A stretch of DNA of 50,528 nt from Pseudomonadota bacterium (GTDB lineage: Bacteria; Pseudomonadota; Gammaproteobacteria; Nitrosococcales; Methylophagaceae): positions 1-50,528 of the forward strand of contig JALIBN010000034.1 in NCBI GenBank assembly GCA_030576275.1, read 5' to 3'. The translations under genes and the position numbers were made by a program. The first letter of the stretch is position 1; each line of letters starts with the position of its first letter. Below are positions 6,160-50,528 of this stretch, in pieces. The notes under the pieces are model-generated. The model was not told the DNA's origin, did not search any database, and was given only the letters and a program-made list of their open reading frames with translations.

Positions 6160-7080
6160 ATGAAGAATATTTTAGGTCAATCGCCTCAAATTACGCACTT
6201 ACTACGTACCTTACCCATGATTGCTGTGAGCGAGGCGAGTGTTTTAATTTATGGCGAAACGGGTACGGGCAAGGAATTACTGGCAAAGGCCTTACATGCT
6301 GAAAGCCGGCGAGGTGACAAAAAATTAGTCACTATAAATTGTGCCGCGTTACCTTTAGAAGGTATAGAAGCTGATTTATTTGGCCGTGCCAATACATCAG
6401 GTGAAATCGAATATCGTGGTCGATTGCTGGCGGCAGAAGGTAGCACGGTGTTTTTTGATGAGGTTGATGCCTTACCCTTATCTGTTCAGACTAAAGTATT
6501 ACGCTTTTTAGAAGCAGGTGAATGTCAGTTACAAGGTAGCCATAAGTTACATGTTGCCGATGTGCGAATCATAGCGGCAACCAGTGCCGACTTACAGCAA
6601 GAAGTTGCCGCAGGTCATTTTCGCGCTGATTTGTTTTATCGTCTGCAAGTCGTGCCGATCACTATGCCACCATTACGAGAGTGTAGTGATGATATTAGCC
6701 TGTTGTTACGTCACTATGGCCGAGAGTTTGCTGGTGATAATGCCGTGGTGCGTTATTCAAAAAACATTGAACATTGTTTGCTGACTTATGCATGGCCTGG
6801 CAATATTCGCGAGTTGAAAAACTTCTGTCAGCGTATGGCCTTACTTTATCCCGGCAAGGCCTTAGTGGAAGAAGATTTGCCGCCGGAAATGTTGCCACAA
6901 GTAGCGGCAAGTCATCATGCTTTTACTTTGCCGCCAACGGGTATCGATTTGGCACAGGTTGAATTGGATTTAATTGAACAAGCCTTGGATCTCGCCGCAG
7001 GTAATCGCTCTCGTGCAGCAAGATTATTAGGCATAAGCCGCGACACTTTACTCTATCGAATGCAGAAATATTCCTTGTAA
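6160..7080 (+). CDS. NtrC-family AAA+ regulator lacking receiver domain and GAFTGA motif
   Basis: A 306-residue protein that is essentially only the sigma-54-activator AAA+ module plus a Fis-type helix-turn-helix. Visible motifs: Walker A GETGTGKE (residues 32-39), Walker B VFFDEVD (97-103), arginine finger region FRADLFYRL (154-162), WPGNIRELKN (212-221), and a DNA-binding helix pair RSRAARLLGISRDTLLYRMQ near the end. It has no N-terminal sensory domain. Where activators carry GAFTGA, between LFG (73-75) and GRLL (87-90), this protein is three residues shorter and reads RANTSGEIEYR, so the sigma-54 contact loop appears lost. ATPase residues are intact. AAGGCGG sits upstream of the ATG, and the gene is 12 bases behind the TauE/SafE-like gene. 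Confidence 0.85.
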   Translation: MKNILGQSPQITHLLRTLPMIAVSEASVLIYGETGTGKELLAKALHAESRRGDKKLVTINCAALPLEGIEADLFGRANTSGEIEYRGRLLAAEGSTVFFDEVDALPLSVQTKVLRFLEAGECQLQGSHKLHVADVRIIAATSADLQQEVAAGHFRADLFYRLQVVPITMPPLRECSDDISLLLRHYGREFAGDNAVVRYSKNIEHCLLTYAWPGNIRELKNFCQRMALLYPGKALVEEDLPPEMLPQVAASHHAFTLPPTGIDLAQVELDLIEQALDLAAGNRSRAARLLGISRDTLLYRMQKYSL

Positions 7081-7121
7081 TAAGCCATAATAGGCGCACT
7101 CATTTATTGCTAAGGTAAGTC

Positions 7122-7973
7122 ATGAAACAGTATCTCGATTTGTGCCAACGAATTATCGATGACGGTCATTGGATTGAAAATAAACGTACAGGTAAACGTT
7201 GCCTAACGGTTATTAATGCCGACTTGAATTACGATGTTGCGAACAATCAATTTCCTCTAATTACAACGCGTAAAAGTTACTGGAAATCAGCCATTGCAGA
7301 GATTTTGGGCTATATCCGTGGTTATGATAATGCGGCGGATTTTCGTGCTTTAGGTACAAAAACATGGGATGCCAATTCTAACGATAATGAGCAATGGCTA
7401 AAGAGTCCTTTCCGCAAAGGCCGCGATGATATGGGGCGGGTTTATGGCGTTCAAGGGCGATCTTGGGCCAAGCCAGATGGCGGTCATTTAGATCAACTTC
7501 GTAAGCTGGTAGATAACTTGTCTCAAGGCATTGATGACCGTGGTGAAATATTATCGTTCTACAATCCGGGTGAGTTTGAAATGGGCTGTTTACGCCCCTG
7601 TATGCATACTCATACCTTTTCATTATTGGGTGACACACTTCATTTAACATCTTATCAACGTTCTTGTGATGTCCCCCTAGGGCTTAATTTTAATCAAGTA
7701 CAAGTCTTTACCTTGCTTAAAATCATGGCGCAAATTACCGGCAACAAGGCTGGCATGGCGTACCATAAAATAGTGAATGCTCACATTTATGAAGATCAAT
7801 TGTTATTAATGCGTGATGTCCAGCTTAAACGACAACCCTTTCCTTCACCACAATTGTCGATCAATCCTGAGATTAAAACGCTAGAAGATCTTGAAACGTG
7901 GGTGACCATGGATGATTTTGAAGTGACAGGTTACGAATGTCATGACGCGATAAAATATCCCTTTTCGGTGTGA
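7122..7973 (+). CDS. thyA: Thymidylate synthase
   Basis: A 283-residue ThyA-type thymidylate synthase, slightly longer than the 264 residues of the E. coli enzyme. It converts dUMP to dTMP using methylene-tetrahydrofolate. The catalytic cysteine is C160 in [10 protein letters not shown], followed by the conserved nucleotide-binding [14 protein letters not shown] segment and the HIYEDQL motif. The usual 'LAPCH' around the cysteine is LRPCM here, a mild variant. AAGGTAAGTC directly precedes the ATG. It is transcribed alone, 41 bases after the regulator gene and 60 before a cytochrome gene. The presence of ThyA means folate as well as H4MPT is needed for C1 chemistry. Confidence 0.95.
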
Positions 7974-31562: not shown

Positions 31563-33101
31563 ATGAATGAATTTACATCTCCTTCAGCTGAACCTAACTA
31601 TATTGCACGTTTAGCACTGCAAGCTGCGCCATTTAATGTCTTGGTTGAACCCAATATATTTTTCAAAGGTGAGCAAATAGAGCAACGTTATAATCTTTTA
31701 TTGCACTTGATTAGAGCCAGTGACAAGGTAGGCTTATTATTAGCTGAGCAAGGCTTAGGAAAAAGTACACTGCTCACACAACTGCAGCTTAACAAAACTG
31801 ATGATCTGAGAATTTGCCGTATTAATGGCCATGCTTCTTTAACATCGATGGAAATTATCATGCAGTGTTTATCTGCTTTTGGCGTTGATGATAATGACGT
31901 TAAATTCAGTAATGATCATCTTATTCTTCTTAAAGATAGATTATCTGGTCTTCGCCAGTTAAACATCAAACCGCTATTACTTATTGATGATATCGATCTA
32001 GTCTCCGAAGAGCCTTTGGTAGTATTGATGGACTGTCTATCGTGGCAAAACAACGATGCTTTTTTACTACAGGCCATATTCACTAGTAAACAAATATTGC
32101 CTTCCTTAGCAAATATTCACGGACGATTGCAACAGATTGATTTGCCTGCACTATCGGAACAAGAAGTGCCCTCATATTTAGATTATCGCTTAAAGGTGGT
32201 CGGCTATAAGGGTGAATCTGTTTTTAATCTAAAGGATTTGAAACAGTGTTATCGACAATCGACGGGTATACCGGCTTTAATCAACCAATGGGCTCATCAA
32301 CACCTATTGGGGTTGAAATCTACTGTCGCTAACCCGATAAAGATCAACATGAATTTTAACGTTGGGCGCTTTATCCCATTACTCCGTTGGTCGGGTTTAG
32401 GATTATTGGTAAGCACGCTCATTGTGCTATTGTTATTTCAAGATACAATTAATGACTTGTTTGCACCAAAAATGGTTGAAGAAATGACCATTGAAAAACC
32501 CTTTACTAAACAAGAAGAGTCATTGGCGACCGTTATTCTCGATGAAGATAAAGTCACTTCTTCTGCACAAGCAGAACGAGATGAACTCAAATCATTAGTT
32601 TCTGAGTTAGCTCAAGTTGCTGTCGAGCCTGAGAAAGTCACAGATGCCATCTCACAAGATGAAAATAATCCTAAAGTTCAAACCATCGTGACTCAACCAA
32701 TTTTAGTACCTAAGCCAGAATTAGTACCTAAGCCAGAATTAGTACCTAAGCCAGAATTAGTACCTAAACCAGTTTTAAAAGCAGAACTGTCCCCCGCTAT
32801 TCATCAAAAAAAGTGGATTTTACAACAGAGTGCAACCGATTATACCTTTCAGCTCATGGGGTCCTGGGAGAAACAGGAAGTGGTGGCATTCCTAGAAAAA
32901 TATGCCTTAGCAGGTGATGTAGCTGAATTTGAAAGTATGCGTAATGGTCGCGTTTGGTATGCGTTAATTTATGGTGTTTATGACAATAAACAAGCGGCAT
33001 TGGATGCAAGTAGTAAATGGCCTGCTCCAATTAATACCTTGCCATCATGGTTACGACGTTTTGATAGTGTGCAACAGCAGATTAAAAAAACGGCCAATTA
33101 A
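31563..33101 (+). CDS. damX: DamX-like AAA/SPOR-domain cell division protein
   Basis: A 512-residue protein in the standard damX position after aroB. An N-terminal ExeA-like AAA ATPase domain has Walker A EQGLGKST (residues 62-69) and Walker B LLLIDDIDLV. One membrane helix follows (about 272-293), then a charged linker with a Pro-Lys repeat (381-404) and a C-terminal SPOR domain that would bind denuded peptidoglycan at the septum. The fold order matches DamX of Vibrio and Pseudomonas relatives. The usual downstream dam gene is absent; the furan-cofactor operon converges on this gene instead, 15 bases away. Confidence 0.88.
   Translation: MNEFTSPSAEPNYIARLALQAAPFNVLVEPNIFFKGEQIEQRYNLLLHLIRASDKVGLLLAEQGLGKSTLLTQLQLNKTDDLRICRINGHASLTSMEIIMQCLSAFGVDDNDVKFSNDHLILLKDRLSGLRQLNIKPLLLIDDIDLVSEEPLVVLMDCLSWQNNDAFLLQAIFTSKQILPSLANIHGRLQQIDLPALSEQEVPSYLDYRLKVVGYKGESVFNLKDLKQCYRQSTGIPALINQWAHQHLLGLKSTVANPIKINMNFNVGRFIPLLRWSGLGLLVSTLIVLLLFQDTINDLFAPKMVEEMTIEKPFTKQEESLATVILDEDKVTSSAQAERDELKSLVSELAQVAVEPEKVTDAISQDENNPKVQTIVTQPILVPKPELVPKPELVPKPELVPKPVLKAELSPAIHQKKWILQQSATDYTFQLMGSWEKQEVVAFLEKYALAGDVAEFESMRNGRVWYALIYGVYDNKQAALDASSKWPAPINTLPSWLRRFDSVQQQIKKTAN
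32703..32774 (+). repeat. 18-bp tandem repeat in damX linker
   Basis: Four copies of TTAGTACCTAAGCCAGAA, encoding LVPKPE. The first three are identical at the base level; the fourth has two regions of change. They extend the stiff Pro-Lys linker between the membrane helix and the SPOR domain and are open to copy-number slippage. Confidence 0.95.
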
Positions 33102-33116
33102 AAATACGATTGCCCA

Positions 33117-34274
33117 TTAAAAATAGGATTTAAGTGCAGTAAGTAGCGGCTTGGCTTGGCTAGTGTGACTGGCAAAAACGACACGGTATACTTCTTGACC
33201 ATTTACTTTTGCCGTAGATAACTGCCCAATGTTTATCAAATGAGTTAAGTCGACGGCTGTTGAAGGCCTGAAACAGACGATTCCTGTAGCTGAGTGTAGT
33301 AGCCACCAACTTGACTGTTGTTTTAATCCAACAGCAAACTGTTCTGCTTGGTCGAGGCGCTGGTTAATACGATCTGAGAATGATTGTTTGCCACTTACTA
33401 TTAAACTACACCAAAGCGGCAGAAATAATTCGCCACCATAAGAGCCTCCTATGGTCTGTTTAGGTGGTTGCGTTAGATAATCGACATCAATATCAGAACT
33501 GTTTGTTAAGGACTGTTTATACAGTAACAAGCTACAGGGTTTTGGTTGTCCTAACGCTTTGTGGGGGTCGAAACATATCGAATCAGCTTGGGCAATGCCG
33601 CTAAGATGATGCTGATGAGCTAGTGATAACATTAATGCACCGCCCCATGCGGCATCAATATGACACCAGCTATTAAATTCTTTGGCAATATCAATGCATG
33701 TAGGAATAGGATCAATTGCGCCACAAGAAGAGGTACCCGCAGTGACTACAATGGCTATAGGAGGAATGAGTTGGCAAGCTGAGCGTAAAGCCTTAACATC
33801 TATTTGTCCGAATTCATTAGTCGGAATAGCTTGAAAGTTTAAACCTAAGATGCGGCAGGCTTTACTGATTGAGTAATGAGCCGCTTGTGAGCCATAAATA
33901 ACATTGGATGAATTTGTACTGCGATCTCTTGCTTGCCATAAGGCATCGAGATTGCCATAACTGCTGCCGTGAGTGAAATGTGCAAAAGGCTGTTCAAACA
34001 ACTGACAAAACCAGTCTAGTAATTGTTGTTCAATAGCCGCTAATTGCGGATAGAGTTCGGATGAGAGCAAATTGCCATTGTGCAAGCCTGCTAACAGTTG
34101 TCCTAAGAGAGCAGGTAGGTCGATGGCAGGCGTCATATGTCCTGCCCAGCTAATTTTATGGTGTAGTTGACCTTCCGTTATCAATTGTTGAATGAGCTTT
34201 GCTGACTTGTCATCCTTAGGTAAGGCGTAGAGTTGATTCTGTAATAAGCTGAATATCTCAGATAGTGCTGTCAT
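33117..34274 (-). CDS. PLP-dependent decarboxylase, predicted L-tyrosine (or aspartate) decarboxylase, MfnA-like
   Basis: A 385-residue group II PLP decarboxylase. Visible: the THGSSYGNLDALWQAR segment (101-116), TAGTSSCGAIDPI (178-190), the PLP-pairing aspartate D207 in HIDAAWGG, and the Schiff-base lysine K239 in FDPHKALGQP. Archaeal MfnA makes tyramine for methanofuran, and related enzymes make beta-alanine from aspartate. Its position as the last gene of an operon with MfnD-, MfnE- and MfnF-like genes supports tyramine formation, but substrate cannot be read from the sequence. It overlaps the kinase gene upstream by four bases. Confidence 0.82.
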   Translation of the reverse strand: MTALSEIFSLLQNQLYALPKDDKSAKLIQQLITEGQLHHKISWAGHMTPAIDLPALLGQLLAGLHNGNLLSSELYPQLAAIEQQLLDWFCQLFEQPFAHFTHGSSYGNLDALWQARDRSTNSSNVIYGSQAAHYSISKACRILGLNFQAIPTNEFGQIDVKALRSACQLIPPIAIVVTAGTSSCGAIDPIPTCIDIAKEFNSWCHIDAAWGGALMLSLAHQHHLSGIAQADSICFDPHKALGQPKPCSLLLYKQSLTNSSDIDVDYLTQPPKQTIGGSYGGELFLPLWCSLIVSGKQSFSDRINQRLDQAEQFAVGLKQQSSWWLLHSATGIVCFRPSTAVDLTHLINIGQLSTAKVNGQEVYRVVFASHTSQAKPLLTALKSYF

Positions 34275-34861
34275 GGTAAATACAAGTTGGCTTCATTGCC
34301 ATGGTTTGGAATGCTTTCGGCAAACCCAGCATAGGATTGATAGTGGATGATCCGAGTTGGAATGGAATGCTTAGCAAATAAATCAACAAAGCTACGATCA
34401 ATAACGTTATTGGCCGTGAGTTTTTGGATTGAGGCGCTACTAACGTGAACGTGCTTGACCAATAATAATTGTTCGGCCTCTAGTTTTGATGCTAGCCATA
34501 AAGCAAGGCTATCAGAAGTTAGAGCCCAGCTCTGGGGTAAAATGGGGTCTGCAAGCACGGAATCATCAGGTAGCCATACCGATAATGCTTGTTCGGGCTT
34601 GAGGGCATTAAATGGCTGACATTTAGTTTCAAGTGCGGTCAACATTAAGCCAAACTGTTTCATCGCTATCAGCGCCATATGATGAGCTACTGCATCGTTA
34701 AAATGATGAATTGTCTGAGCTTCACGTACTAGATCGGCAAAGGGACCACCCCCTGGAACTATTACGATGGGTGTTGATATGGAGGTATCTGTCAGAGTTT
34801 GTAGCCATAGCTTTAATTCTGGTGTGCTGTATAAACTGCCACCGAGTTTGACTACTAGCAC
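34271..34861 (-). CDS. Amino-acid-kinase-family protein, MfnE-like, predicted furan phosphate kinase
   Basis: A short (196-residue) amino acid kinase fold. VVKLGGSLYS at the N-terminus and VPGGGPFADLVR (about 34-45) are the nucleotide-binding glycine loops; LTSDSLALWLASKL is the third. In methanogens MfnE phosphorylates aminomethylfuran phosphate to the diphosphate used in the coupling step. The short length and the operon partners fit that role here. It overlaps pabB by seven bases and the decarboxylase gene by four. Activity is inferred from family and context. Confidence 0.78.
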   Translation of the reverse strand: MLVVKLGGSLYSTPELKLWLQTLTDTSISTPIVIVPGGGPFADLVREAQTIHHFNDAVAHHMALIAMKQFGLMLTALETKCQPFNALKPEQALSVWLPDDSVLADPILPQSWALTSDSLALWLASKLEAEQLLLVKHVHVSSASIQKLTANNVIDRSFVDLFAKHSIPTRIIHYQSYAGFAESIPNHGNEANLYLP

Positions 34862-36255
34862 TTTAGTTGTTCAAGTAGTTGGAAAATAGCAGCGGCTTTG
34901 TCGTGCACTTCTTGGTACTCAGCATCAACGGTTGAATCGACAACGATGCCTCCTCCCGCCCAAAAACGCAGGCGATTATCGCTGTATATTAAGGTGCGAA
35001 TAGTGATATTACTATCCATTTTGCCATCAAAACCAATGTAGGCGATGCTACCGCAATAAAGCCCACGACGATGTGGTTCAAGTTCTTCTATGATTTCCAT
35101 CGCACGTAACTTAGGCGCGCCAGTGATTGAGCCACCGGGAAAACAGGCACGTAATAATGAAACGGCATTTTGCTTATCTGCCAAGGTGCCGGTGATCGTG
35201 CTGACTAAATGATGAACGGTTGCAAAAGATTCTAAGGCGAATGGTTTAGGTACTTTAATAGAACCAGGCACACAAACTTTGCCCAGATCATTGCGTAATA
35301 AATCAACGATCATTAGATTTTCAGCCCGATCTTTAAGACTAGCCTGTAATTCATCAGCGAGTAATTTATCACGTTGGGTATTATTCAAATCACGAGGGCG
35401 CGTACCTTTGATTGGCTTGGTTTCAACATGCTGTTGCGTTACTTTCAATAGCCGTTCAGGTGATGAACTGAGTACGGTGGCATAGGGTGTGGCAAAGAAA
35501 CTGGAAAAGGGTGCGGCATTTTGTTTTCGCAGTAATTGGTAGGCAAACCAAGGATCACCTTCGGCATCGATTTCAAATCGTTTAGCGAGGTTGACCTGAT
35601 AACAATCCCCTTCATGAATATAGTGCTGGATTTTGTTAAAGGCAAGTTGATATTCTTTTTGATCTAAATTACAACGTAGCTGACCACTGACATGAAAAGT
35701 GACTGGATTTTTAGGTGGCGTTATAGTCGTTAACGCGCTGACAATGCTAGCCCATTGACCTTGCGTCTCTGCATTAAGCCCGTAACTTGCCAACCAGCAG
35801 CGTTGTTGTTGATGATCGGTAACGATAGCCCAGTCGTAAATACCTATCACCATGTCAGGGATATGTTCTGCATCTATAGCTTGTTGAGGAAGGTTTTCGA
35901 TTCGCCGGCCCAAATCATAAGCAAAATAGCCTAATGCGCCGCCACAAAATGGAAAGTCAGCGTGTTGATGAGGTTTAAACTCATGCAAGATATTTTGTAG
36001 TAGCACAAAAGGATCGTCACTAGACAGTAGGGCATCTTGATTGTGATGTTTGATCAGCGTATCTGCACCAGTAGTGACCAGCGTTATAAAGGGTGCTGCA
36101 GTTTGAATATCATAACGACTATCATCAGATTGACTTGAGTTACTACTATCTAAGAATACCGGCCATGGCTTATTGCGGAGCGCCTCAAAATAAAGGGCGC
36201 TATCTGCCAGATAAGGAAGCTCAGTACAAAGAGGTGGGAGATTTATATCATTCAT
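34855..36255 (-). CDS. pabB: Aminodeoxychorismate synthase component I (PabB)
   Basis: A 466-residue chorismate-utilising enzyme. The PIKGTRPR motif carries the lysine that marks PabB rather than anthranilate synthase (which has PIAGT). LKDRAENLMIVDLLRNDLG and GGSITGAPKLRAMEIIEELE complete the active site. With a PabA/TrpG amidotransferase (not in this window) it makes 4-amino-4-deoxychorismate, the precursor of p-aminobenzoate. p-Aminobenzoate is part of both folate and H4MPT. The gene sits inside the furan-cofactor operon, 10 bases after the MfnF-like gene and overlapping the MfnE-like gene, so its supply is tied to C1-cofactor synthesis. Confidence 0.92.
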   Translation of the reverse strand: MNDINLPPLCTELPYLADSALYFEALRNKPWPVFLDSSNSSQSDDSRYDIQTAAPFITLVTTGADTLIKHHNQDALLSSDDPFVLLQNILHEFKPHQHADFPFCGGALGYFAYDLGRRIENLPQQAIDAEHIPDMVIGIYDWAIVTDHQQQRCWLASYGLNAETQGQWASIVSALTTITPPKNPVTFHVSGQLRCNLDQKEYQLAFNKIQHYIHEGDCYQVNLAKRFEIDAEGDPWFAYQLLRKQNAAPFSSFFATPYATVLSSSPERLLKVTQQHVETKPIKGTRPRDLNNTQRDKLLADELQASLKDRAENLMIVDLLRNDLGKVCVPGSIKVPKPFALESFATVHHLVSTITGTLADKQNAVSLLRACFPGGSITGAPKLRAMEIIEELEPHRRGLYCGSIAYIGFDGKMDSNITIRTLIYSDNRLRFWAGGGIVVDSTVDAEYQEVHDKAAAIFQLLEQLKC

Positions 36256-36265
36256 AGCGCGTATT

Positions 36266-37312
36266 TTACGGTAACTGTTGTTGGGCTAAAAGGGCAACCG
36301 CAACTGCCGGTGCGTGATCAGCGCTAGCAGGATGTTGAATTGATAATATTTCATTGAAATCTAGATAAGGTCGATTAAGACGCTGCGCGCAAGCTTTGGC
36401 GATAAATCGACCCACACCCGCCCCAATAATAGGCGCATCCGTAGCTAATTCCGTGTGTGCAGATAATACTTGTAATATGGCATTGCTAACCAGATGACTT
36501 TGTTGCTCTGCAAACCATTGAGCGAGTTGTTTCCATTGAGCTATATTAGCTTGATTAGCATCGGTGCCGAGTAGTCTAGCGATACGACTAGCGCAAAAAT
36601 CAACTTGCCATGGTTGGCCATCAGCACTGCAATCTTGAATTGAAGTCGGCTCAAGTAAGCCCAATAAACACCAGCAATCACCGGTAGTGGCAAAAACTTC
36701 GGCGGCAAGACTGACTAATACTCCATTGAAGGGGGCATTGTGGCTGAGTGCGAACAGTGGCGTTCTGATTGCGCCGGTATAAAGTAATTCACGGTTAGTT
36801 TGTCGTTGAAAGTCATCAAGGCCATGCGGGATAGCGAAGCCATGACGGAGCGGAATGATATCACAAGTGGTACTGCCAATATCAACGAATAAACCGTCGG
36901 GTATAGCTTGAGCAACGAGACTGGCGCTGGCCTGCCAGTTACGTGATGCGACACTTTTCCAGTATTTAGCGGCTAGTTCTGGTTTTAACCAGCCAGCTTC
37001 CGCGGCATAAACGACGATTTTGTCATGGTTTATATATTGAGCAACACAGGCTAAAATTTCTGCGACGCCCGCTTGGCGATTTGGGAATATATCGACCAAT
37101 TCACCGGTCATGGTGATGGCGGTAATATCATTTTGATTACCAAGTTGTGCAAACACCGATTCAATTGCAGTGGCTAGTTGGTCAATGCCTTGCCATAAAG
37201 GACAAGCAATTTGAATAACGTCTTGTATGTTTCCATTATGATCACTGCGTGCAACTTTGACATGGGCACCGCCAATGTCCCAACCGCTAATATAAGGAAA
37301 TGTTTGTGTCAT
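36266..37312 (-). CDS. H4MPT-linked C1 pathway protein, hydantoinase/oxoprolinase-like, MfnF-like
   Basis: A 348-residue ASKHA-fold protein with GWDIGGAHVKVARS at the N-terminus and GLFVDIGSTTCDIIPL near residue 135, the two phosphate-binding loops. It belongs to the hydantoinase A/oxoprolinase-like group found only with H4MPT-linked C1 pathways. The archaeal member MfnF couples aminomethylfuran diphosphate to gamma-glutamyltyramine in methanofuran synthesis. Operon partners here (MfnD-, MfnE- and MfnA-like) support the same role. It overlaps the upstream ligase gene by four bases. Confidence 0.8.
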   Translation of the reverse strand: MTQTFPYISGWDIGGAHVKVARSDHNGNIQDVIQIACPLWQGIDQLATAIESVFAQLGNQNDITAITMTGELVDIFPNRQAGVAEILACVAQYINHDKIVVYAAEAGWLKPELAAKYWKSVASRNWQASASLVAQAIPDGLFVDIGSTTCDIIPLRHGFAIPHGLDDFQRQTNRELLYTGAIRTPLFALSHNAPFNGVLVSLAAEVFATTGDCWCLLGLLEPTSIQDCSADGQPWQVDFCASRIARLLGTDANQANIAQWKQLAQWFAEQQSHLVSNAILQVLSAHTELATDAPIIGAGVGRFIAKACAQRLNRPYLDFNEILSIQHPASADHAPAVAVALLAQQQLP

Positions 37313-38331
37313 ATGAAGATCTCAATGGCATTTCGTTGAATGTTGAGGGGCAGTCCCGAGAAACCTTGTTTCATCATGTTCACGAGTAGTTGAGCTGGAT
37401 TGAGGTTTAGTGACTCACCTAGACCAACGTAGGCAGTAGTGAGCCGTGGATTGATATCAAGGATATAAGTTTCGTTATCTGTGACGATGAGATCGATACC
37501 GATAAACCCCCATAAACCGGGAATGGCATGATGAGTCTTCTCGGCTATTTCGGTTGCCTGTAGCAGGCTAAATTGAGTTTCAGCAATACCATTGACACAA
37601 CAGCCATGGAAACTAAGCTTGCCATCTTCAAGTTTAATATATTGCTGATTAATCGCCAGTACTCGGATCGTATCATCATCGACTAATAACGAGAGACTCA
37701 TTGCATGGCCTTCGATGTATGGTTGAATAATAGTCTGCTCAAGTTCAATGGAACTTGTTATTAACCACGCTGTAAGCATGGTTTGAGTACTAAAAAACAG
37801 TGTATCAATACAGCCTGCGCCATCACGCGGTTTAATAATAAAACCTGATGGCGAGTTAAACGGATTTAGCGACCATTCATCGGCTGTAATGGTGTGTGGT
37901 GTGAGTATATTATTGGATCTTAATTGCTCATGGCAGATGACTTTATCTGTGCAAATGTGCGTTGCCATAGGCTGGCAACCTAGTAACTGCTTGTGCTGAT
38001 TTAATACCGTTTGTTGAAGATTTCGTAATAGTCCATCCGTTTCAGGTGCGATAATTAATACGGCATCAGCTTCCTTAACCGAGCTGGCATAATGTTGCTG
38101 AAATGTACTGTAGTCATCGATAATTAAGCACTGGTGATGAGCACTATCGATAATATCAAACAGTGGCTCAAGACGAAAATCACGTAAAATGATAAGCTGG
38201 ATATCGGTTAATAGCGTCATATCATGGACAATAGCGCTGAGCATTTCATTGCCCTCATGGGCAAGACTTGCTGGCAATGACTCATTAATGAGTGCACCGC
38301 TTGTGATATGTTCGTAAACAAATACTTTCAT
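37309..38331 (-). CDS. ATP-grasp ligase, MfnD-like, predicted tyramine/tyrosine-glutamate ligase
   Basis: About 340 residues from the ATG at 38331 (MKVFVYEHITSG), which matches how the family begins; the frame is open 14 codons further upstream. ATP-grasp features are FIIKPRDGAGCIDTLFF (ATP-binding strand-loop) and the magnesium-binding YILDINPRLTTAYVGLGES. Archaeal MfnD joins glutamate to tyramine through the gamma-carboxylate for methanofuran; in the bacterial cofactor the acceptor may be tyrosine. It is the first gene of a five-gene minus-strand operon and is divergent from a HisA-like gene only 22 bases away. Confidence 0.8.
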   Translation of the reverse strand: MKVFVYEHITSGALINESLPASLAHEGNEMLSAIVHDMTLLTDIQLIILRDFRLEPLFDIIDSAHHQCLIIDDYSTFQQHYASSVKEADAVLIIAPETDGLLRNLQQTVLNQHKQLLGCQPMATHICTDKVICHEQLRSNNILTPHTITADEWSLNPFNSPSGFIIKPRDGAGCIDTLFFSTQTMLTAWLITSSIELEQTIIQPYIEGHAMSLSLLVDDDTIRVLAINQQYIKLEDGKLSFHGCCVNGIAETQFSLLQATEIAEKTHHAIPGLWGFIGIDLIVTDNETYILDINPRLTTAYVGLGESLNLNPAQLLVNMMKQGFSGLPLNIQRNAIEIFI

Positions 38332-38353
38332 TAAATGAAATCTGAGGAATAAG

Positions 38354-39046
38354 GTGGAAATTATACCTGTCATCGATGTATTGGGGGGAAAGGTTGTACA
38401 TGCTCGCGGCGGTGTTCGATCTCAATATCCCTTATTACAATCTGTTTTAACCTCACATTGTGAGCCATTAAAGGTGATTAATGACGTGTTGGGTTGGCAA
38501 CCATTTTCGACTATTTATGTTGCCGATCTTGATGCGATTTTACAACAACAGCATAATATTGAGTTGTATAAAAGCTTAGCTAAGGATTTTCCTCGAGTTA
38601 CTTTCTTGTTGGATGCGGGTATTGATTCAAAAGAAAGCTGGCAACATTTTCTGGACTATCCCAATATTAAACCTGTTATTGGTAGTGAGACTTTAGTAGA
38701 TATTGGTTGGCTGGCAGATTCAGGTATACAACAAAAAAGTATTTTGTCGTTAGATTTTCAGCATGGTCAGTTTTTAGGCGATCAACAACTTTTACAGCAA
38801 CCAGAAGTATGGGCTGAAAATATAATTGCAATGAATATAGATCATATTGGCTCGCACTCTGGACCCGACTTTGAATTATTAGCTAGCTTGCAACGGCAAG
38901 CAATCAATAGCCAAATTATTGCTGCTGGTGGCGTTAGATCTGAACAGGATTTGATTGATTTAGAACTGCAGGGAGTAGGGCGTGTGTTGATTGCTAGTGC
39001 ATTGCATGATGGCAGGATCACCAAACGTAGTGTGGATAAAGTTTAA
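38354..39046 (+). CDS. HisA/HisF-related TIM-barrel protein of the H4MPT/methylofuran gene set
   Basis: A 230-residue TIM barrel of the HisA-like group seen in methanogens and H4MPT-using methylotrophs. It starts at GTG with GAGGA seven bases upstream and reads IIPVIDVLGGKVVHARGG, the phosphate-binding start of the barrel. ILSLDFQHG and IIAAGGVRSEQDLIDLELQGVGRVLIASALHDG are the C-terminal phosphate loops. It is too divergent, and wrongly placed, for histidine synthesis. The reaction is unknown; a step in furan or pterin cofactor assembly is likely from context. It converges on fae. Confidence 0.8.
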   Translation: MEIIPVIDVLGGKVVHARGGVRSQYPLLQSVLTSHCEPLKVINDVLGWQPFSTIYVADLDAILQQQHNIELYKSLAKDFPRVTFLLDAGIDSKESWQHFLDYPNIKPVIGSETLVDIGWLADSGIQQKSILSLDFQHGQFLGDQQLLQQPEVWAENIIAMNIDHIGSHSGPDFELLASLQRQAINSQIIAAGGVRSEQDLIDLELQGVGRVLIASALHDGRITKRSVDKV

Positions 39047-39122: not shown

Positions 39123-39641
39123 TTAGCTTGCAGCAAAAGGGTGTGAGCTAGTTTTATATTGTGCTAAAACGTCTGCTGCTTTTGGTTCACGAGCAACGGC
39201 ACGTTTGATTGATTCTTTAGTTGCGCGGTAGTTCCAATCTTGAATTTTTTGATCGTTATCTGCAGTTGGAGAAATGAAAACACCAACACAGATGAAACAA
39301 TCATCAGCTTCAGCCATAGGAATTGTGCCGTCTTCAACACATTCAGCAACAGCCATCGCAACACCGCGTTGAGCTGGGCCGAACATTTGTACCGCTTGTT
39401 TCATGTTTTTGATAGTTACTTTGTTGAACATAACTGTCGCAGGTTTAACCATAAGGTTAGGTGCAACTACAGCTAGTAAGCCGTTAACACCTGCTTTTTG
39501 GTCTGTCATTGTGCGGCAGAAAGCGTCTTCTGCTGCTGAACCACGAGGGCCCATAAGTAAGTCAATGTGTGCTACGTTGTCTAGGTCGCCATCTTCAATT
39601 ACTAAAGATTCACCTACTAATACGCGATCGATAACTGGCAT
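39123..39641 (-). CDS. fae: Formaldehyde-activating enzyme Fae
   Basis: A 172-residue Fae from the ATG at 39641, chosen because AGGAATAAATAAC lies just upstream and [14 protein letters not shown] aligns with known Fae starts. The frame is open 14 codons further (ATG at 39683, no ribosome binding site). Fae condenses formaldehyde with H4MPT to methylene-H4MPT in the cytoplasm. The catalytic histidine is H25 in [34 protein letters not shown] and GVAMAV are highly conserved. It ends SSHPFAAS, as in other Fae proteins. Presence of Fae is strong evidence for methylotrophy or formaldehyde detoxification. Confidence 0.97.
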
Positions 39642-39711
39642 GTTATTTATTCCTGTTCCAAAAAATTTGTTAAAAAGGCCCATTTTACACTCGCCTTATT
39701 ACTACGGAGAG

Positions 39712-39746: not shown

Positions 39747-39774
39747 GCCTTGATGCGAAATATCGCATCAAGGC
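39747..39774. repeat. 12-bp inverted repeat at the end of the CitG-like gene, upstream of fae
   Basis: GCCTTGATGCGA pairs perfectly with TCGCATCAAGGC around the loop AATA. The stem covers the stop codon of the CitG-like gene and lies 106 bases before the fae start. It has no T run, so it is not a standard terminator; it may stabilise the upstream mRNA end, act as a processing site, or bind a regulator. Confidence 0.8.
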
Positions 39775-40643
39775 GCTGAAATGCTGTTAGAAGAAAGAGC
39801 TTGTTGGAACGCATAGATTAACAGCGTCGCTGCGGTTAAATCTGCGGTGGTTCCCGGATTGATTGCTTTCTTCTTTAATTCGTTATCCCAAGTAATTATT
39901 TCTGCCTCAAAAGAGCTTAACATATTGTTTTCATTTACTTTCGTTAGTATCTTTGTTGCTGCTTTAGTTATTTCTAGGGCGTGTTTGCTTGATTGTTTTC
40001 GGCGAATCAAGGTGTCAGGAACACTTGCTAAGAACTTAAGATACGCGAAAGCGGTGGCCCATTCAACACTTTCCCCAGATTTTATCGAAGATGTCAATAT
40101 TGGCAGTCCGAAATTTAAGATATCCTTGTAATTATTAACGTATTGCTTAGCTATAGCGTCGCGTTCTTCAGCAATTTTCATTGCTTGCAATAAAGTTACG
40201 CTAGGAATCGCGTCAATATCTTGTTGTTCACTGCTACCAAGTCCCCCCGCATCCGCTAAACGAATGGCTTGGTAGCATGCTTTGGCATCATCAATCGTGA
40301 GGCTGAGTAATACTTTCTCTAGCTCATCAGGGAGTTGTTTAAAATGCGAACATTGGTGAATTGCACGGCATAATGGTGCAAACAACAATACGATGCCTAG
40401 GTTAGTATTGCAATTCACTACCGTGCGTGTGGCCTGGATGCCTTGTAAGATAAGTTCGCCGACAGACAATGCTTTTTGCGACATAATCGGAGCAATGGCA
40501 TGAGCGCTTTTGATGAAATCTTGCACCTCCATTCTATGGCCATCACTGAAGCAGTTTACATTGCCCGGTTTGGGGGCTGCGACTTCGTTTTTACACGCCC
40601 AGATAACGCAGCTTTCGATTGTGTTGCTAGATAATATGTTCAT
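39768..40643 (-). CDS. CitG/MdcB-like protein of the H4MPT cluster (Orf7 type)
   Basis: A 291-residue protein of the triphosphoribosyl-dephospho-CoA synthase (CitG) family. EVAAPKPGNVNCFSDGHRM near residue 20 and DAGGLGSSEQQDI near residue 130 are its motifs. True CitG makes the prosthetic group of citrate lyase, but no citrate or malonate lyase gene is present. In methylotrophs a relative lies next to fae and is needed for H4MPT-linked formaldehyde oxidation, probably in cofactor synthesis by a phosphoribosyl-type transfer. The exact reaction is unknown. It overlaps the upstream ATP-grasp gene by four bases. Confidence 0.82.
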   Translation of the reverse strand: MNILSSNTIESCVIWACKNEVAAPKPGNVNCFSDGHRMEVQDFIKSAHAIAPIMSQKALSVGELILQGIQATRTVVNCNTNLGIVLLFAPLCRAIHQCSHFKQLPDELEKVLLSLTIDDAKACYQAIRLADAGGLGSSEQQDIDAIPSVTLLQAMKIAEERDAIAKQYVNNYKDILNFGLPILTSSIKSGESVEWATAFAYLKFLASVPDTLIRRKQSSKHALEITKAATKILTKVNENNMLSSFEAEIITWDNELKKKAINPGTTADLTAATLLIYAFQQALSSNSISAP

Positions 40644-41557
40644 GTGACATGGCTAACGGGAGTTATTGAGCTTATTCGTTGTAAAATTGCGCGTGCAAGA
40701 TGTCCTGCGACATCAATGCCCGTTGCTTGATACAAGCCTTTCCATGCTGGCACGCTGTTTACTTCTAAGACGGTATAAGCGCCACTGATTGTTCTGATAA
40801 TATCAACACCGGCATAATCTGCGTGAACAGCCTTGGTTGCTGCAATGGCTAGTTGTTCCATTTCTGGGGTGACCGTTGTCGCTAAACAGCTCGCACCTTG
40901 GGCAAAATTTGTGATCCAATGGTCTGACTGTCTAGACATCGCTGCACAGACTTGTCCATCAACTACCATCAAGCGCCAATCTTGCCATTTTTCTGGTGTA
41001 AACGGTTCAATATATTCTTGCAAATAAAAAGCATCACCCACTACTTTTAGCTTATCAAACTCAGCTAAAGTGGTGATTTTTTCTATACCCTTGCCTTGGC
41101 AGCCAAATAAGGGTTTTACTACTATCGTATTGTGTTTTGCGAACTGTTGACTTGCTATCTTTCGTGCTAACACGCGATTTTCGCAGGCCCATGTTTTAGG
41201 TGTGTTTAATCTTGCCAGATGAAGTCTTAATGAGGTACGTGCTTTATCAACTGTATGTTCGATAGCAATGGCAGGATTGAATACTGGCACATGGAGCTCG
41301 GCTAAAGTATGTAATACATCCATTCTTAAGGTAATTTGTTCAAGACTACCAGGGGCAATACCCCGTACCATTGCCGCAGCGGGTAAATGCTCTTCAAAGC
41401 CAGGAATTTTAAGGCCCGCAGGATGATCGAGATCGATCACGCAATCCGCAAGATCAGTGAGTACCGCTGATATGCCTATACTCTGCAGGGCTTCGACTAA
41501 CTGGTCGCTGTGCCAGCCATGGGTGTCGTTAAAAATGACGATTTTAGGTGATGACAT
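40640..41557 (-). CDS. RimK-like ATP-grasp ligase of the H4MPT cluster (Orf5 type)
   Basis: A 305-residue ATP-grasp protein. TIVVKPLFGCQGKGIEKI is the ATP-binding loop, YLQEYIEP the hinge, and YTVLEVNSVPAWKGL the magnesium-binding end. It resembles RimK and the archaeal H4MPT:glutamate ligase MptN, so addition of glutamate to H4MPT or to the furan cofactor is a reasonable guess. Relatives lie between mch and fae in other methylotrophs. Its start is 58 bases after the mch terminator, and it overlaps the CitG-like gene by four bases. Confidence 0.82.
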   Translation of the reverse strand: MSSPKIVIFNDTHGWHSDQLVEALQSIGISAVLTDLADCVIDLDHPAGLKIPGFEEHLPAAAMVRGIAPGSLEQITLRMDVLHTLAELHVPVFNPAIAIEHTVDKARTSLRLHLARLNTPKTWACENRVLARKIASQQFAKHNTIVVKPLFGCQGKGIEKITTLAEFDKLKVVGDAFYLQEYIEPFTPEKWQDWRLMVVDGQVCAAMSRQSDHWITNFAQGASCLATTVTPEMEQLAIAATKAVHADYAGVDIIRTISGAYTVLEVNSVPAWKGLYQATGIDVAGHLARAILQRISSITPVSHVT

Positions 41558-41615: not shown

Positions 41616-42599
41616 TTATAGACCGAATGATGTAGTTAATAATTCTGAATTTAACTCGCCAGCGGTGAAACTCTTACCTGTTTTTGCATTAGTAATAATA
41701 ACTTTTGCTGGGCTGAATAACATAGGATCAATCTTGAAAAAGTCATATTCATATGCTTTAAAGATTTCACCAAATGGACGTCCATAGTCTGAAGAGGTGT
41801 TACTTGGCATCTTTTCAGCTAAATCACGGGCTTCATCATCGGTGGCATTTACGAATAAATGCACCATGCCGCCATAAAGAATAGCATCGTTAGTACGGCC
41901 CATACCCGTTATGAAGTCACCACCTGGAGGTGCAACAGGAGTTACACCGAAGCCATCAATGATTTTATCCATAGGAAAATGTAAGGTATGTGCTTTATGC
42001 ATCGCGACTTCAAGTACACGAATGGCAATTTGCATAACACCAGCAAGGCTTGATGTCGGCGTTAGGATAAACGTTAAATCTTCGGGCTTGATGCCACAGT
42101 CCTTAGCTACTTTCTCAGCAACTTCAATAGGCGGGAATGAGTCGACTTCTAAGACGATGCATGTTGATGTTGCTTCATCTTTATAGCCAAATTCTTTTAA
42201 TACTTCTTCTTTACCCGCTAAAGCGCGACCAGGACCTGAACCTAATGCGAAGAATTTACCTGCTTCACTTTTATGCGACAAGCTCCAGCCGGCATATTGG
42301 CTACCTAGACAACTTAAAACAGGCGTTTTAGCATGAACATTAACTGACCACGGCCAAGTAGCAAAACCGCTATTAGTACCTAAAGTAACAGTACCCAAGC
42401 CACCCATGCAAATTTCACCAATCAAGCGGCCGGCTTCTAAGCCACCAACACAATTAATGCCTGCATCAACAATGCGTGTGCCATTGCTTAGGGTGCTGAT
42501 TTCAAGTTGTAATGCTTGCGCATCGGCAACTAAACGTTCAACTAACGGTTGGCAGGCAGCGTTAACGCTACTCCAATTGGCAGAAATGTTTCCGCTCAT
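41616..42599 (-). CDS. mch: Methenyl-H4MPT cyclohydrolase
   Basis: A 327-residue Mch, the normal length, that interconverts methenyl-H4MPT and N5-formyl-H4MPT in formaldehyde oxidation. Conserved blocks include GTRIVDAGINCVGGLEAGR, TWPWSVNVHAKTPVLSCLGSQYAGW, FALGSGPGRALAGKE and DGFGVTPVAPPGGDFITGMGRTND. TAGGACC lies before the ATG. It has its own promoter and terminator and so is transcribed alone, although it precedes the ATP-grasp, CitG-like and fae genes. The next enzyme, the formyltransferase/hydrolase complex, is not in this window. Confidence 0.97.
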   Translation of the reverse strand: MSGNISANWSSVNAACQPLVERLVADAQALQLEISTLSNGTRIVDAGINCVGGLEAGRLIGEICMGGLGTVTLGTNSGFATWPWSVNVHAKTPVLSCLGSQYAGWSLSHKSEAGKFFALGSGPGRALAGKEEVLKEFGYKDEATSTCIVLEVDSFPPIEVAEKVAKDCGIKPEDLTFILTPTSSLAGVMQIAIRVLEVAMHKAHTLHFPMDKIIDGFGVTPVAPPGGDFITGMGRTNDAILYGGMVHLFVNATDDEARDLAEKMPSNTSSDYGRPFGEIFKAYEYDFFKIDPMLFSPAKVIITNAKTGKSFTAGELNSELLTTSFGL

Positions 42600-46425: not shown

Positions 46426-49400
46426 TTAGTGATCTACATGTGGGTAATGAGTACCCAGTAAATTTTTCATGGTTTCGACGAGTTCAAGTTCTTGGTATGG
46501 TTTACCCATATAGGCATTAACACCAATAGCCATTCCTCTATCACGATGTTTTGCACCAGTACGTGATGTGATCATGATAATGGGAATGTGTTTATATTGT
46601 TCAGTATTCCTGAGCAGTGTTGCAAATTCAAAACCATCCATGCGCGGCATTTCAACGTCAAGCAGGATGATATCGGGTGTCTGTTCGTTCAGTTGTGCTA
46701 CCGCATCCATGCCATCGCGGGCAGTCATAACATCAAAGCCATGTCGTTTTAGTAAGTTGCTCGATGCTTTACGCATTGTAATTGAGTCATCAACCACCAT
46801 CGCTAGGGGAGTATGTTGGACAGCTATTTCTTCAGTAATCGTTAGAGATTTAACGGAATCTAATTTGACTTCATTGCTTGCAATCCCAGTATCCATTGTT
46901 TCAACTAAGGTTGGGATATCGAGTATAAAGACAACTTGGCCATCGCCGAGGATAGTAGCGCCAGTAATAGAAGCAATATGACCCAATTGTTCGCCAGCAG
47001 ATTTAAGTACAATTTCGCGATTGCTATTAATGGCGTCAACCAATAAAGCGATATGCATATCACCATAGCGGAACAATAAAAGAGGTAGCTGTACTTTAGG
47101 ATCGTTTGGAAGAATAAGTGGCAGATCAAGTAAAGTGCTTAAAGGCAGGAATCGGTAATGATTGCCATTGACTTTATATACTGACTCACCATCCTGTTGA
47201 AGTAATTCTTTGACTGCACTAACAGCAATTCGGTCACCCGCGTGAACAGCCACTAGCGGGATTGCATATTGATGCTCATGGCTACTGACCAGTAAAGCTT
47301 GCATGACAGATAAAGTGAGCGGTAACCGAATATTAAAGGTCGTACTTTTACCAGCAATAGATTGGATCGATAGTCGACCTTTTAAGGCGCGAATTTCATT
47401 ACTGACTACATCCATACCGACACCTCGGCCAGCAAGCTGTGATACGTTATCTGCAGTACTAAATCCAGAGGATAGAATTAACTGAATTAAGTCTTCATCA
47501 CTAGGCATGTTTTGTGGATTGATCAGTTTTTGCGCCAGTGCTTTTTCGCGTACTTTTTGAATATTAATGCCTTGACCATCGTCTGATAGAGAAATCAGAA
47601 TTTCTGAACCTTCTCGTATGATCTTAATGGTTAATGTACCTATAGTATTTTTCCCTAAGGCTCGCCGTTCATCAGCCGTTTCAATACCGTGAGCAATGGC
47701 ATTTCTGAGAATATGTTCAATGGGCGCGACTATGCGATCAATGATCGTTCTATCTAATTCTCGATCTGCACCATGGATAATTAGTTGAGATTGCTTGCCA
47801 ACTTCAGCGTTCGTTTGACGAACGATACGCTCAAATCGGGGTACAAGTCCTTCAAATGGAATTAAGCGTGTGTTCATCAGCCCCTGTTGCAAATCGGTGC
47901 TGAGCCGAGATTGCTGCAATAGAATACCGTCAGATTCTTGTACTAACAGTTCAAGAGATTGACTGATTTCATGCATATCACTGACTGATTCAGTTAAGCC
48001 GCGCGATAATTGTTGAATCATCGAGAAGCGATCAAGCTCGAGCGGATCGAACTCAGATTCTTGCTTAAGTAGTTCGTCGTCATAACGAAATAGAATTTGA
48101 GTTTCAGTTTCTATTTCAAGATTACGCAGTTGATCTTGTAGCCGTGACAGAGTACTTTCCATCTCTGCTAATTGTTGTTTAATGGCTGAGTTTTGTTGGC
48201 CGACACGGTCACGGGATATATTTACTTCCCCTGCGAAGTTAGATAAAAAATCCAGTAAATCAGTTCGAACACGTATTTGGTCACTATGACTATGATGTGG
48301 CACATTGCTTGAATCAGTTGGCGCAATGGCCGCTGTAGCGGTTTCCGTTATCGGGATTTGCGGAGCAGGAATAGATAAGGTTTGCTGAGAGAACGAGGCT
48401 ATTTCGGTAATCAAATCATGAGCAAAGTTAAAGCTAGATTGATTAGCCAGTAATTCCTGCATATCAGCTAGACGATCTTGACTGCGCTGTAATAAATCAA
48501 AAAAAGCAGGACTAGCATCAATTGCTGTCTCAGTGATTTGAAATACTAATGACTCTACTTGATGAGTGAGATCGGCAATTGGCGTAATACCAGCCAGACG
48601 TGCGCCACCTTTAAGTGTATGAAGATCTCGCTGTAATTGTAAAACCGCATCTTGGGCGCCCGGTTCTTTTTGCCAATGTTTAATTGCCTCGCCACTAGAT
48701 GCAAGAAGTTCAGCACATTCTTCAGTAAAGGCTTCTAATAATTCAGGATCTTCATTTGGAATCGAAAACAACTCATTGCTCACTTCGGCAGGTTCAATCA
48801 CAGAAGCTTGAGATAAGCTGTTCTCTAGCTTCTGTTTAAAGTCATTGATACTCGGACTTGGTTTGTTTTGTAGCAAGTTCTCAATTTGAAGATTAATTTC
48901 TTCGCTAGCTAGTTCAAATAGCATTAAGTGGTCGTTATTACCGCTATTAGCAATCTCTGTTAACTTGATTAACAATTGATATAGCTCAGATAGACTATTG
49001 AGCTTGAGTATGTCTGCATTATCACGCAGTGTTGTGAGGAGCTTTTTTAACGTAGTTTTAATGTCATCAGGATTAGTCGCACGCTGCTTAAACTGGTTAA
49101 TTTGTTCCTCATATTGTGATAACAATTCATCAGATTCTTCAATAAATACGGCAAGAAAATCAGGATCAATAAGCTTTTGTTGTTGTGCTTTTTCATCATC
49201 ACTAGGCAATAGTTGTTGCAGTGACTCGCTGAAAGACGAAATATCTGGCTTAGAATTTGTTTGAGGAGATTTTACATGTTCAACGTAGCGTTCAAGGCCA
49301 TCGATTGCCGATGATAATACCTCACGTTGCTCATCATTGAGGATAGCACCGTGTTCATAACGTTCCCGTAAGGATTGGTCTAATTGGGTTGCAAGTTCAG

Positions 49401-50528
49401 CTACAGGGAAAAGTTGGACGATATTAGCACAGCCTTTTAGGGAATGTGCCGCCCGCAATAGTTCTTTATCGATAGTAAAGTTTGATGTTGATTTATTCAG
49501 CGCTTGTTTGAATGTGGCAATGTGCTGAGTTGCCTCAAGATTGAATATTTGTTGCAACTCATCATCTTCGGATACATTATTTTCTGTTTCTAATAACAGA
49601 GTAGCGGTCTTAGTTAATTCCGTTGCGCGCTCATTAGAGGCCATTTCACCGTTGTTGAAGTCAGTGAGTAAATCAGGAATCAGCTCTGCACAGCTTGAGA
49701 TTAGGGGCGTGAGTTGTGTTGAAATGGTTAGATTATTTTCTAAGACCTTGTTGATAAGATATTCGATAGCTTTTGCTAAGTCAGCAATGACATTGGCTCC
49801 CGCCATATAGCCACTTCCTTTCAGAGTGTGGAAATGGCGACGAATTATAGCTAATACTTCAGGGTTGCCTTGGGTATCCCATTTAGGGATTAGTTCGAGC
49901 AGTTCGGCAAGTACTTCATTGGCTTCTTCAATAAAGATTTCTGCAATTTCACTATCAATGCCATCAGCAAATTGGGCGGTGAAGGCCATTGTTGGTGGCA
50001 AGTCGGTTAATTGACTTTGGATGTTGATAAGCTCTTCTACACTGGCTTCCAATGGAATAGTAGTGATTGAAATTTCAGAAGCATTGGTTGCTAGTTCAGC
50101 CTGTTGATTAATATAGCGTTGAACACTGGTTTCCGATGGGGTAGTCGTGACCGAAATTTCAGGCTCATTGATTGCTAATGCCGCCTGTTGATCAATATAG
50201 CGCTGAACACTGGTTTCCGATGGGGTAGTCGTGACCGAAATTTCAGGCTCATTGATTGCTAATGCAGTCTGTTGGTCAATATAGCGCTGAACACTGGTTT
50301 GTGATGGCGAAGACGAGAGCGATATTTCAGTCGCATTTGTTGCTAATGCAGTCTGTTGGTCAATATAGCGCTGAACACTGGTTTGTGATGGTGAAGACGA
50401 GAGCGGTATTTCAGTCGCATTGTTTGCTAATGTAGCCTGTTGATCAATATAACGCTGAACACTGGTTTGTGATGGTGTAGTCGTGACCGAAATTTCAGTC
50501 GCATTGTTTGCTAATGCAGTCTGTTGAT
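46426..50528 (-). CDS. chpA: ChpA/PilL-type hybrid chemosensory histidine kinase, 5' end beyond the window
   Basis: An open frame of more than 1,360 codons that runs off the right edge, so the start is not seen; an apparent start at 50052 is only a TTG inside the frame. From the N-terminal side: 28-residue repeats; an Hpt domain (His codon at 49828, FHTLKGSG); a second (49444, AHSLKGCA); a third that lacks the histidine (TTLRDNAD); a fourth (48619, LHTLKGGA); a dimerisation helix pair; a CheA-type ATPase (LRNAIAHGIE, DDGQGI, GRGVGMDVV); a CheW domain; and a C-terminal receiver (VVDDSITMRKA, LLDVEMPRMDG). It would control type IV pili or twitching, in line with the pilMNOPQ operon. Confidence 0.93.
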   Translation of the reverse strand, partial: QQTALANNATEISVTTTPSQTSVQRYIDQQATLANNATEIPLSSSPSQTSVQRYIDQQTALATNATEISLSSSPSQTSVQRYIDQQTALAINEPEISVTTTPSETSVQRYIDQQAALAINEPEISVTTTPSETSVQRYINQQAELATNASEISITTIPLEASVEELINIQSQLTDLPPTMAFTAQFADGIDSEIAEIFIEEANEVLAELLELIPKWDTQGNPEVLAIIRRHFHTLKGSGYMAGANVIADLAKAIEYLINKVLENNLTISTQLTPLISSCAELIPDLLTDFNNGEMASNERATELTKTATLLLETENNVSEDDELQQIFNLEATQHIATFKQALNKSTSNFTIDKELLRAAHSLKGCANIVQLFPVAELATQLDQSLRERYEHGAILNDEQREVLSSAIDGLERYVEHVKSPQTNSKPDISSFSESLQQLLPSDDEKAQQQKLIDPDFLAVFIEESDELLSQYEEQINQFKQRATNPDDIKTTLKKLLTTLRDNADILKLNSLSELYQLLIKLTEIANSGNNDHLMLFELASEEINLQIENLLQNKPSPSINDFKQKLENSLSQASVIEPAEVSNELFSIPNEDPELLEAFTEECAELLASSGEAIKHWQKEPGAQDAVLQLQRDLHTLKGGARLAGITPIADLTHQVESLVFQITETAIDASPAFFDLLQRSQDRLADMQELLANQSSFNFAHDLITEIASFSQQTLSIPAPQIPITETATAAIAPTDSSNVPHHSHSDQIRVRTDLLDFLSNFAGEVNISRDRVGQQNSAIKQQLAEMESTLSRLQDQLRNLEIETETQILFRYDDELLKQESEFDPLELDRFSMIQQLSRGLTESVSDMHEISQSLELLVQESDGILLQQSRLSTDLQQGLMNTRLIPFEGLVPRFERIVRQTNAEVGKQSQLIIHGADRELDRTIIDRIVAPIEHILRNAIAHGIETADERRALGKNTIGTLTIKIIREGSEILISLSDDGQGINIQKVREKALAQKLINPQNMPSDEDLIQLILSSGFSTADNVSQLAGRGVGMDVVSNEIRALKGRLSIQSIAGKSTTFNIRLPLTLSVMQALLVSSHEHQYAIPLVAVHAGDRIAVSAVKELLQQDGESVYKVNGNHYRFLPLSTLLDLPLILPNDPKVQLPLLLFRYGDMHIALLVDAINSNREIVLKSAGEQLGHIASITGATILGDGQVVFILDIPTLVETMDTGIASNEVKLDSVKSLTITEEIAVQHTPLAMVVDDSITMRKASSNLLKRHGFDVMTARDGMDAVAQLNEQTPDIILLDVEMPRMDGFEFATLLRNTEQYKHIPIIMITSRTGAKHRDRGMAIGVNAYMGKPYQELELVETMKNLLGTHYPHVDH
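50037..50528 (-). repeat. 84-bp tandem repeats encoding 28-residue units in chpA
   Basis: The marker GAACACTGG recurs at 50121, 50205, 50289, 50373 and 50457, exactly 84 bases apart. A degenerate unit precedes it (from 50037), and the array continues past the window end. Each unit encodes a variant of SVQRYIDQQTALA followed by an EIS-(T/S)-rich stretch ending PSxT. No stop or frameshift is seen. Confidence 0.95.

Follow-up and report, generated by a model that had tools for sequence, protein, structure and literature searches.

An mfn operon ending in a decarboxylase gene

The stretch of DNA that we analysed (hereafter the window; 50,528 nucleotides, contig JALIBN010000034.1 of assembly GCA_030576275.1) holds a five-gene mfn operon on the minus strand at 33117-38331, the last gene of which encodes a group II decarboxylase dependent on pyridoxal phosphate (PLP). 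Its source is a methanol-using bacterium of a gammaproteobacterial family that we take to be Methylophagaceae, with Nitrosococcaceae as the sister family in the order. The operon had been proposed in an initial annotation and is confirmed by the list of open reading frames (ORFs) and by family matches (Table 1). We consider it likely that the product of this last gene is an L-tyrosine decarboxylase, dependent on PLP, that is devoted to methylofuran. That tyrosine is the substrate, that it is decarboxylated before being joined to glutamate and that tyramine thus enters the cofactor is what we infer from the evidence below. The genes of the operon are tightly packed: ATGA overlaps of 4 bp join the decarboxylase gene to mfnE and mfnF to mfnD, mfnE and pabB overlap by 7 bp, and 10 bp separate pabB from mfnF. 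The longest ORF of mfnD spans 37309-38373 (354 aa); the initial annotation used the internal ATG at 38331, from which mfnD stays clear of the divergent MfnB gene (38354..39046). FhcB, FhcA, FhcD and FhcC score above their cut-offs on another contig of the same genome (C12); the complex being encoded, the organism has the user of methylofuran.

No other protein of the window's genome matches PF00282, and the score of the decarboxylase places it clearly within the group II PLP decarboxylases. H133, D207, H238, K239, Y266 and R364 are invariant in all 21 aligned family members, with D207 and K239 at the positions that the initial annotation had given for the PLP residues. In such enzymes the roles correspond to the PLP lysine (K239), its aspartate (D207), the stacking histidine (H133) and the tyrosine of the catalytic loop (Y266). 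The latter aligns with a tyrosine of the Sphaerobacter thermophilus PLP decarboxylase, presumably the Y333 that is mutated in 4riz and 4rj0. The scores on NCBIfam models all lie far below the cut-offs: 134.8 bits for diaminobutyrate decarboxylase (NF052646, cut-off 900), 130.2 for histidine decarboxylase (305), 122.5 for PanP (TIGR03799, 606.1) and 113.7 for MfnA (TIGR03812, 299.4). The AlphaFold2 model (pLDDT 89.9) has the Sphaerobacter enzyme as its best PDB match (Z 42.7), with lower values for GAD (41.0), plant tyrosine decarboxylases (38.8) and archaeal MfnA (37.7); the ranks obtained with this predicted structure do not discriminate between substrates.

The gene is intact and under purifying selection. 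Its dN/dS is 0.095 in the comparison with genome G006 (mfnE 0.137, mfnD 0.170, mfnF 0.094) and 0.158 in that with G001 (mfnE 0.533 in the same close pair), these being the two usable pairs, since a third was saturated. Because the arrangement recurs in 53 genomes (see below) and the dN/dS is low, we regard the operon as more than a chance association.

Table 1. The mfn operon and neighbouring genes in the window
Feature	Position	Strand	Length	Profile matches
Group II PLP decarboxylase (predicted tyramine supply for methylofuran)	33117..34274	-	385 aa	PF00282 147.2 bits (cut-off 27)
MfnE-type kinase (5-(aminomethyl)-3-furanmethanol phosphate kinase)	34271..34861	-	196 aa, GTG start	NF040622 77.1 bits (below cut-off 300, best match); AA_kinase
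PabB, aminodeoxychorismate synthase component I (para-aminobenzoate for tetrahydromethanopterin (H4MPT) or folate)	34855..36255	-	466 aa	TIGR00553 368.4 bits (cut-off 328.4); Chorismate_bind
MfnF-type enzyme	36266..37312	-	348 aa	TIGR03123 (H4MPT-linked C1 protein) 319.5 bits (cut-off 244.1); MfnF equivalog NF040623 160.3 (below 520)
MfnD-type ATP-grasp ligase (tyramine or tyrosine to glutamate)	37309..38331	-		NF040722 115.8 bits (below 400, best match); ATP-grasp_3
MfnB-type HisA/HisF-related protein	38354..39046	+		TIGR00734 105.4 bits (below 179.85, best match)
Fae, formaldehyde-activating enzyme	39123..39683	-		TIGR03126 214.9 bits (cut-off 118.05)
CitG-like protein	39768..40643	-		PF01874 237.2 bits
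RimK/MptN-like glutamate ligase (as MyfB/Orf5)	40640..41557	-		TIGR00768 164 bits (cut-off 143.4); MptN 208.5 (below 350)
Mch, methenyl-H4MPT cyclohydrolase	41616..42599	-		TIGR03120 414.7 bits (cut-off 228.8)

We take Orf17 of Methylorubrum to be of the same kind as the CitG-like protein. Farther along the window, a large CheA/ChpA-like protein (46426-50526, minus strand, open at the window end) starts with repeats that resemble one another and are each some 28 residues long (SVQRYIDQQ...).

Occurrence in the family and beyond

The initial annotation had called for a survey of the mfn clusters that hold the decarboxylase. We sought the protein in 95 genomes, 57 of the window's family (its own included) and 38 others, and found it in 53 of the 57. 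The family includes Methylophaga, and the gene is present in Methylophaga aminisulfidivorans MP. Among the 38 other genomes, 13 gave only weak generic matches (best E 2e-29 to 3e-17). The position of the gene is nearly invariable: at 61 of the 62 decarboxylase loci, which stand for the 53 genomes, it directly follows mfnE in the same orientation, the aligned ends being 0-177 bp apart, and the 62nd locus is a contig-edge fragment in G006. G006 carries a second, partial copy of the gene (G006:C23:1-6000; 45-47% identical to the window's) together with aroB at a contig edge; this genome has two PanD genes and is possibly a mixed bin.

The decarboxylase co-occurs with MfnF, which 53 of the 57 family genomes have (once as a fragment below the cut-off); 51 have both. 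G005 and G053 have the decarboxylase and no MfnF match, but the contig breaks off in mfnE in the former and in pabB in the latter. Neither protein was found in G029 (rated 100% complete, 1.1 Mb) or in G013 (86%); G029, a small member of the family, may have lost the H4MPT/methylofuran route entirely. In G049, which lacks the decarboxylase, the contig stops inside pabB.

Outside the family, no relative of the decarboxylase was found in the fetched stretches of 26 mfn neighbourhoods (tblastn, E 1e-4). These are loci L081-L086 and L094-L113 of our collection, 18 of them viewed gene by gene; genomes G061 and G062 are not among them, several of the stretches end at a contig edge, and in several mfnE lies apart from mfnF. 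Four of them, from genomes of the same order (L081-L084), have mfnD-mfnF-pabB-mfnE running towards aroB without a decarboxylase; mfnE and aroB are direct neighbours in two and are separated by unrelated genes in the other two. The restriction to this family is thus a statement about two samples, the search of 95 genomes and the fetched neighbourhoods. The simplest history is a single gain: in the ancestor of the family, the gene was probably appended to an mfnD-mfnF-pabB-mfnE operon that was already there. In a wider check, PF00282 genes were present in 18 of 33 genomes; of those whose gene context was viewed, only one (locus L120, see below) adjoins recognisable one-carbon (C1) genes. Near the PF00282 proteins of 475-510 aa in genomes of the same order no C1 gene was recognised, the neighbours being judged without a profile scan.

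Tyramine core, enzyme lineage and rival functions

The initial annotation started from the premise that bacterial methylofuran needs no decarboxylase. This holds for the bacteria with a tyrosine core; as a general rule it fails. In the 2021 study of Hemmann et al. (PMC8141765, as for all later mentions), liquid chromatography-mass spectrometry (LC-MS) found tyramine-form methylofuran (MYFR-tyramine) in six of nine bacteria, which makes tyramine the commoner core among the strains surveyed. The tyrosine form, already known from M. extorquens, was found in M. radiotolerans and Methylomicrobium album, and neither form in Methylosinus trichosporium. MfnA homologues are reported there for three of the six tyramine strains; for the other three the source of tyramine was left open, and tyrosine decarboxylases with little homology to MfnA were postulated (PMC8141765). 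The core idea is therefore already published for other bacteria; what we add is the lineage of the enzyme, its position in the operon and its presence in nearly the whole family. A literature search, judged by titles and the starts of abstracts and leaving most subscription papers outside, gave no report of a decarboxylase in this operon and no LC-MS measurement of the core for the window's family.

We suggest the following pathway. The decarboxylase would convert tyrosine to tyramine, which MfnD would join to glutamate. MfnB, an MfnC not yet assigned and MfnE would make the activated furan, and MfnF would couple it to the tyramine-glutamate part. RimK-like ligases such as MyfB would add the polyglutamate tail, and the resulting MYFR-tyramine would serve the FhcABCD complex in formaldehyde oxidation. 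The conversion of tyrosine to tyramine is the best reading of the gene because its operon position is fixed, it is coupled to mfnE, it is absent together with MfnF in two genomes, and this conversion is the only decarboxylation of an amino acid in the pathway proposed for MYFR-tyramine (PMC8141765). The tyramine-type cofactor put forward in the initial annotation thus stands as the best reading, given the conserved position and the co-occurrence with MfnF, but such a core had already been known in bacteria.

The same cannot be said of the label "MfnA-like". Besides the TIGR03812 score below its cut-off, a tree in which the decarboxylase is joined to archaeal MfnA has a log-likelihood 76.9 lower and is rejected by the approximately unbiased (AU) test (p 0.00019), and a 100/99 split separates the two in the tree. 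On these three grounds, score, tree position and AU test, we rejected MfnA by descent. Among 60 genomes from a single archaeal phylum, 31 have a TIGR03812 match above the cut-off; among 369 genomes of the window's class, none has. The decarboxylase falls in a branch with PanP, diaminobutyrate-type and aromatic-type decarboxylases, from which it probably derives. Hence "archaeal-like" fits the predicted product but not the gene. The tree was built from 56 selected rows, comprising 15 of the 62 decarboxylase loci, five PanP-type rows (four above the PanP cut-off, L217 assigned by its place in the tree alone) and four other relatives out of 80 named loci, 16 of the 28 PF00282 rows of the wider check, 10 of 30 loci from the class and six MfnA loci, all from the phylum of a Poseidonia genome and without the MfnA of M. 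jannaschii. In an earlier tree, built without the six MfnA rows, the family fell into the same branch; the two trees differ in the deep order inside it, and L118, L148 and L225 are long branches. A plasmid search gave distant relatives only (326 records, all below 60% identity).

Several observations weigh against a tyrosine decarboxylase dedicated to methylofuran. In G055 (contig C75, around 3810-3886; a metagenome-assembled genome 68% complete) mfnD-mfnF-pabB-mfnE are followed by aroB and the decarboxylase is absent, with no PF00282 match elsewhere in the assembly. Its nearest relatives, with 81-85% DNA identity on either side, have about 2.7 kb that G055 lacks, corresponding to the decarboxylase and a neighbouring gene (31563-33101 in the window). 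At this completeness the gap could be a natural loss, and so possibly a natural knock-out, or an assembly fault. Furthermore, the scores of MfnE, MfnD and MfnB fall short of the curated cut-offs, with the expected models as best matches. MfnD does not predict a tyramine core, because the gammaproteobacterium Methylomicrobium album has MfnD yet is reported to make the tyrosine form (PMC8141765). A comparison of pocket columns gave no defensible signature specific for tyrosine and was not used to assign the substrate; at position 279, all 16 PanP rows have R, and the 21 family rows have Y (11), R (4), H (4), F (1) or N (1). Finally, the nearest named relatives outside the family, among the matches listed, are one Porticoccaceae protein (35%) and then mostly PanP-type aspartate decarboxylases.

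This last point bears on the alternative, raised in the initial annotation, that the enzyme decarboxylates aspartate like PanP and supplies beta-alanine for coenzyme A, its place in the operon being incidental. Group II decarboxylases switch substrate easily, and the four PanP relatives that we scanned pass the PanP cut-off (897-972 bits) while being 29-32% identical to the decarboxylase. The latter, however, falls far short of that cut-off and differs at positions 71 and 183, where all 16 PanP rows carry K and E, respectively, and the family has S (21 of 21) and S, A, T, V or R. Supply of beta-alanine is very unlikely because a canonical PanD is encoded in the window's genome, in 55 of the 57 family genomes and in 52 of the 53 with the decarboxylase. 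The enzyme might instead make another amine, from diaminobutyrate, histidine or a different aromatic amino acid, with a role near methylofuran but outside it. The two highest NCBIfam scores would agree with this, but they are far too low for an assignment, and the position fixed over 53 genomes argues against a role outside the pathway; we regard this option as unlikely.

Two further alternatives keep the enzyme within methylofuran synthesis. Decarboxylation could follow the incorporation of tyrosine, acting on gamma-Glu-Tyr or on a methylofuran intermediate rather than on free tyrosine. In favour of this, tyrosine is always present in the cell, the enzymes of M. extorquens accept either core, an organism that takes tyramine when it is fed, and the order of the first ligations is left open (PMC8141765). 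Against it, group II decarboxylases are not known to act on peptides, and archaeal MfnA is described as an L-tyrosine decarboxylase and MfnD as taking only tyramine in vitro (PMC8141765); we regard a late decarboxylation as distinctly unlikely. The enzyme could also be MfnC, the aminotransferase still missing from the pathway, which likewise depends on PLP, has the same type of fold and would aminate the furan aldehyde: the operon encodes no other PLP enzyme, and PMC8141765 assigns no bacterial MfnC. Yet every producer of methylofuran should need MfnC, and no relative was found in the 26 neighbourhoods outside the family (other loci were checked for PF00282 only). Together with the membership in a decarboxylase family and the conserved loop tyrosine, this makes the aminotransferase most improbable.

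A tyrosine decarboxylase for methylofuran would have several consequences. The gene is a concrete candidate for the open source of tyramine, in a family with cultured members (Methylophaga). There is also a natural contrast, with a relative seemingly lacking the gene by loss (G055) and genomes of the same order having a similar operon without it. The type of core would become predictable from the genome, and the reason for a tyramine core could be tested.

Comparison with known systems

The decarboxylase shares with archaeal MfnA (TIGR03812; PDB 3f9t and 6lds) the PLP fold, the catalytic Asp and Lys, a similar length and the proposed reaction, with a structural Z of 37.7, but differs from it in score and in the rejected joint grouping. 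With PanP it shares the tree branch and most of the nearest named relatives noted above, and it is about 160-175 residues shorter. The Sphaerobacter enzyme (4rit, 4rlg, 4rj0) is the top structural match in the PDB and also the best match by sequence, virtually tied with 8zpi (E 7e-36 and 8e-36); identity is 29-30%, and its name gives no substrate.

A parallel case was found in G397, whose mfn cluster lies at another locus (L099). Its only PF00282 match, L120 (G397:C11:83001-97000, at 6427-7956), is convergent to a gene row MoxR-DUF58-x-VWA-x-x-PF10604, which we take to be mxaRSACKLD. PMC8141765 places Mfla_2033 beside mxa in Methylobacillus flagellatus, a proven tyramine producer, a description that L120 appears to match. 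Joining L120 to MfnA was rejected (AU p 6e-10); therefore, if L120 is Mfla_2033, that "mfnA" is also not MfnA by descent. L120 and the window's decarboxylase lie in the same branch, but they are only 28.5% identical and differ in context, and a joint clade was only borderline rejected (p 0.035). The closest relative of L120 among the tree rows (98/98) is L128 (G057:C1:310442-311449), from a genome of the window's order whose mfn cluster has no operon decarboxylase. The tests joining L120 or L128 to either group were chosen after the tree was seen.

It is about an even bet that bacterial methylotrophs recruited tyrosine decarboxylases other than MfnA for methylofuran, perhaps repeatedly, with one fixed in the mfn operon of Methylophaga and its relatives and another beside an mxa-like cluster. 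If so, the tyramine core shared with archaeal methanofuran would be a convergent restoration, and the PanP/diaminobutyrate/aromatic branch would be the place to look for the missing tyrosine decarboxylases of those MYFR-tyramine strains that lack MfnA. The closest known system is the MYFR-tyramine pathway of methylotrophic proteobacteria, for which the nine strains tested do not include the window's family (PMC8141765). Both combine a PF00282 decarboxylase with MfnB-, MfnD-, MfnE- and MfnF-type proteins, a RimK-like ligase and Fhc, and a tyramine core is predicted here as well. The candidates of that pathway, however, came from BLAST searches with MfnA, and one is described as lying beside mxa (PMC8141765), whereas in the window the decarboxylase gene closes the mfn operon itself.

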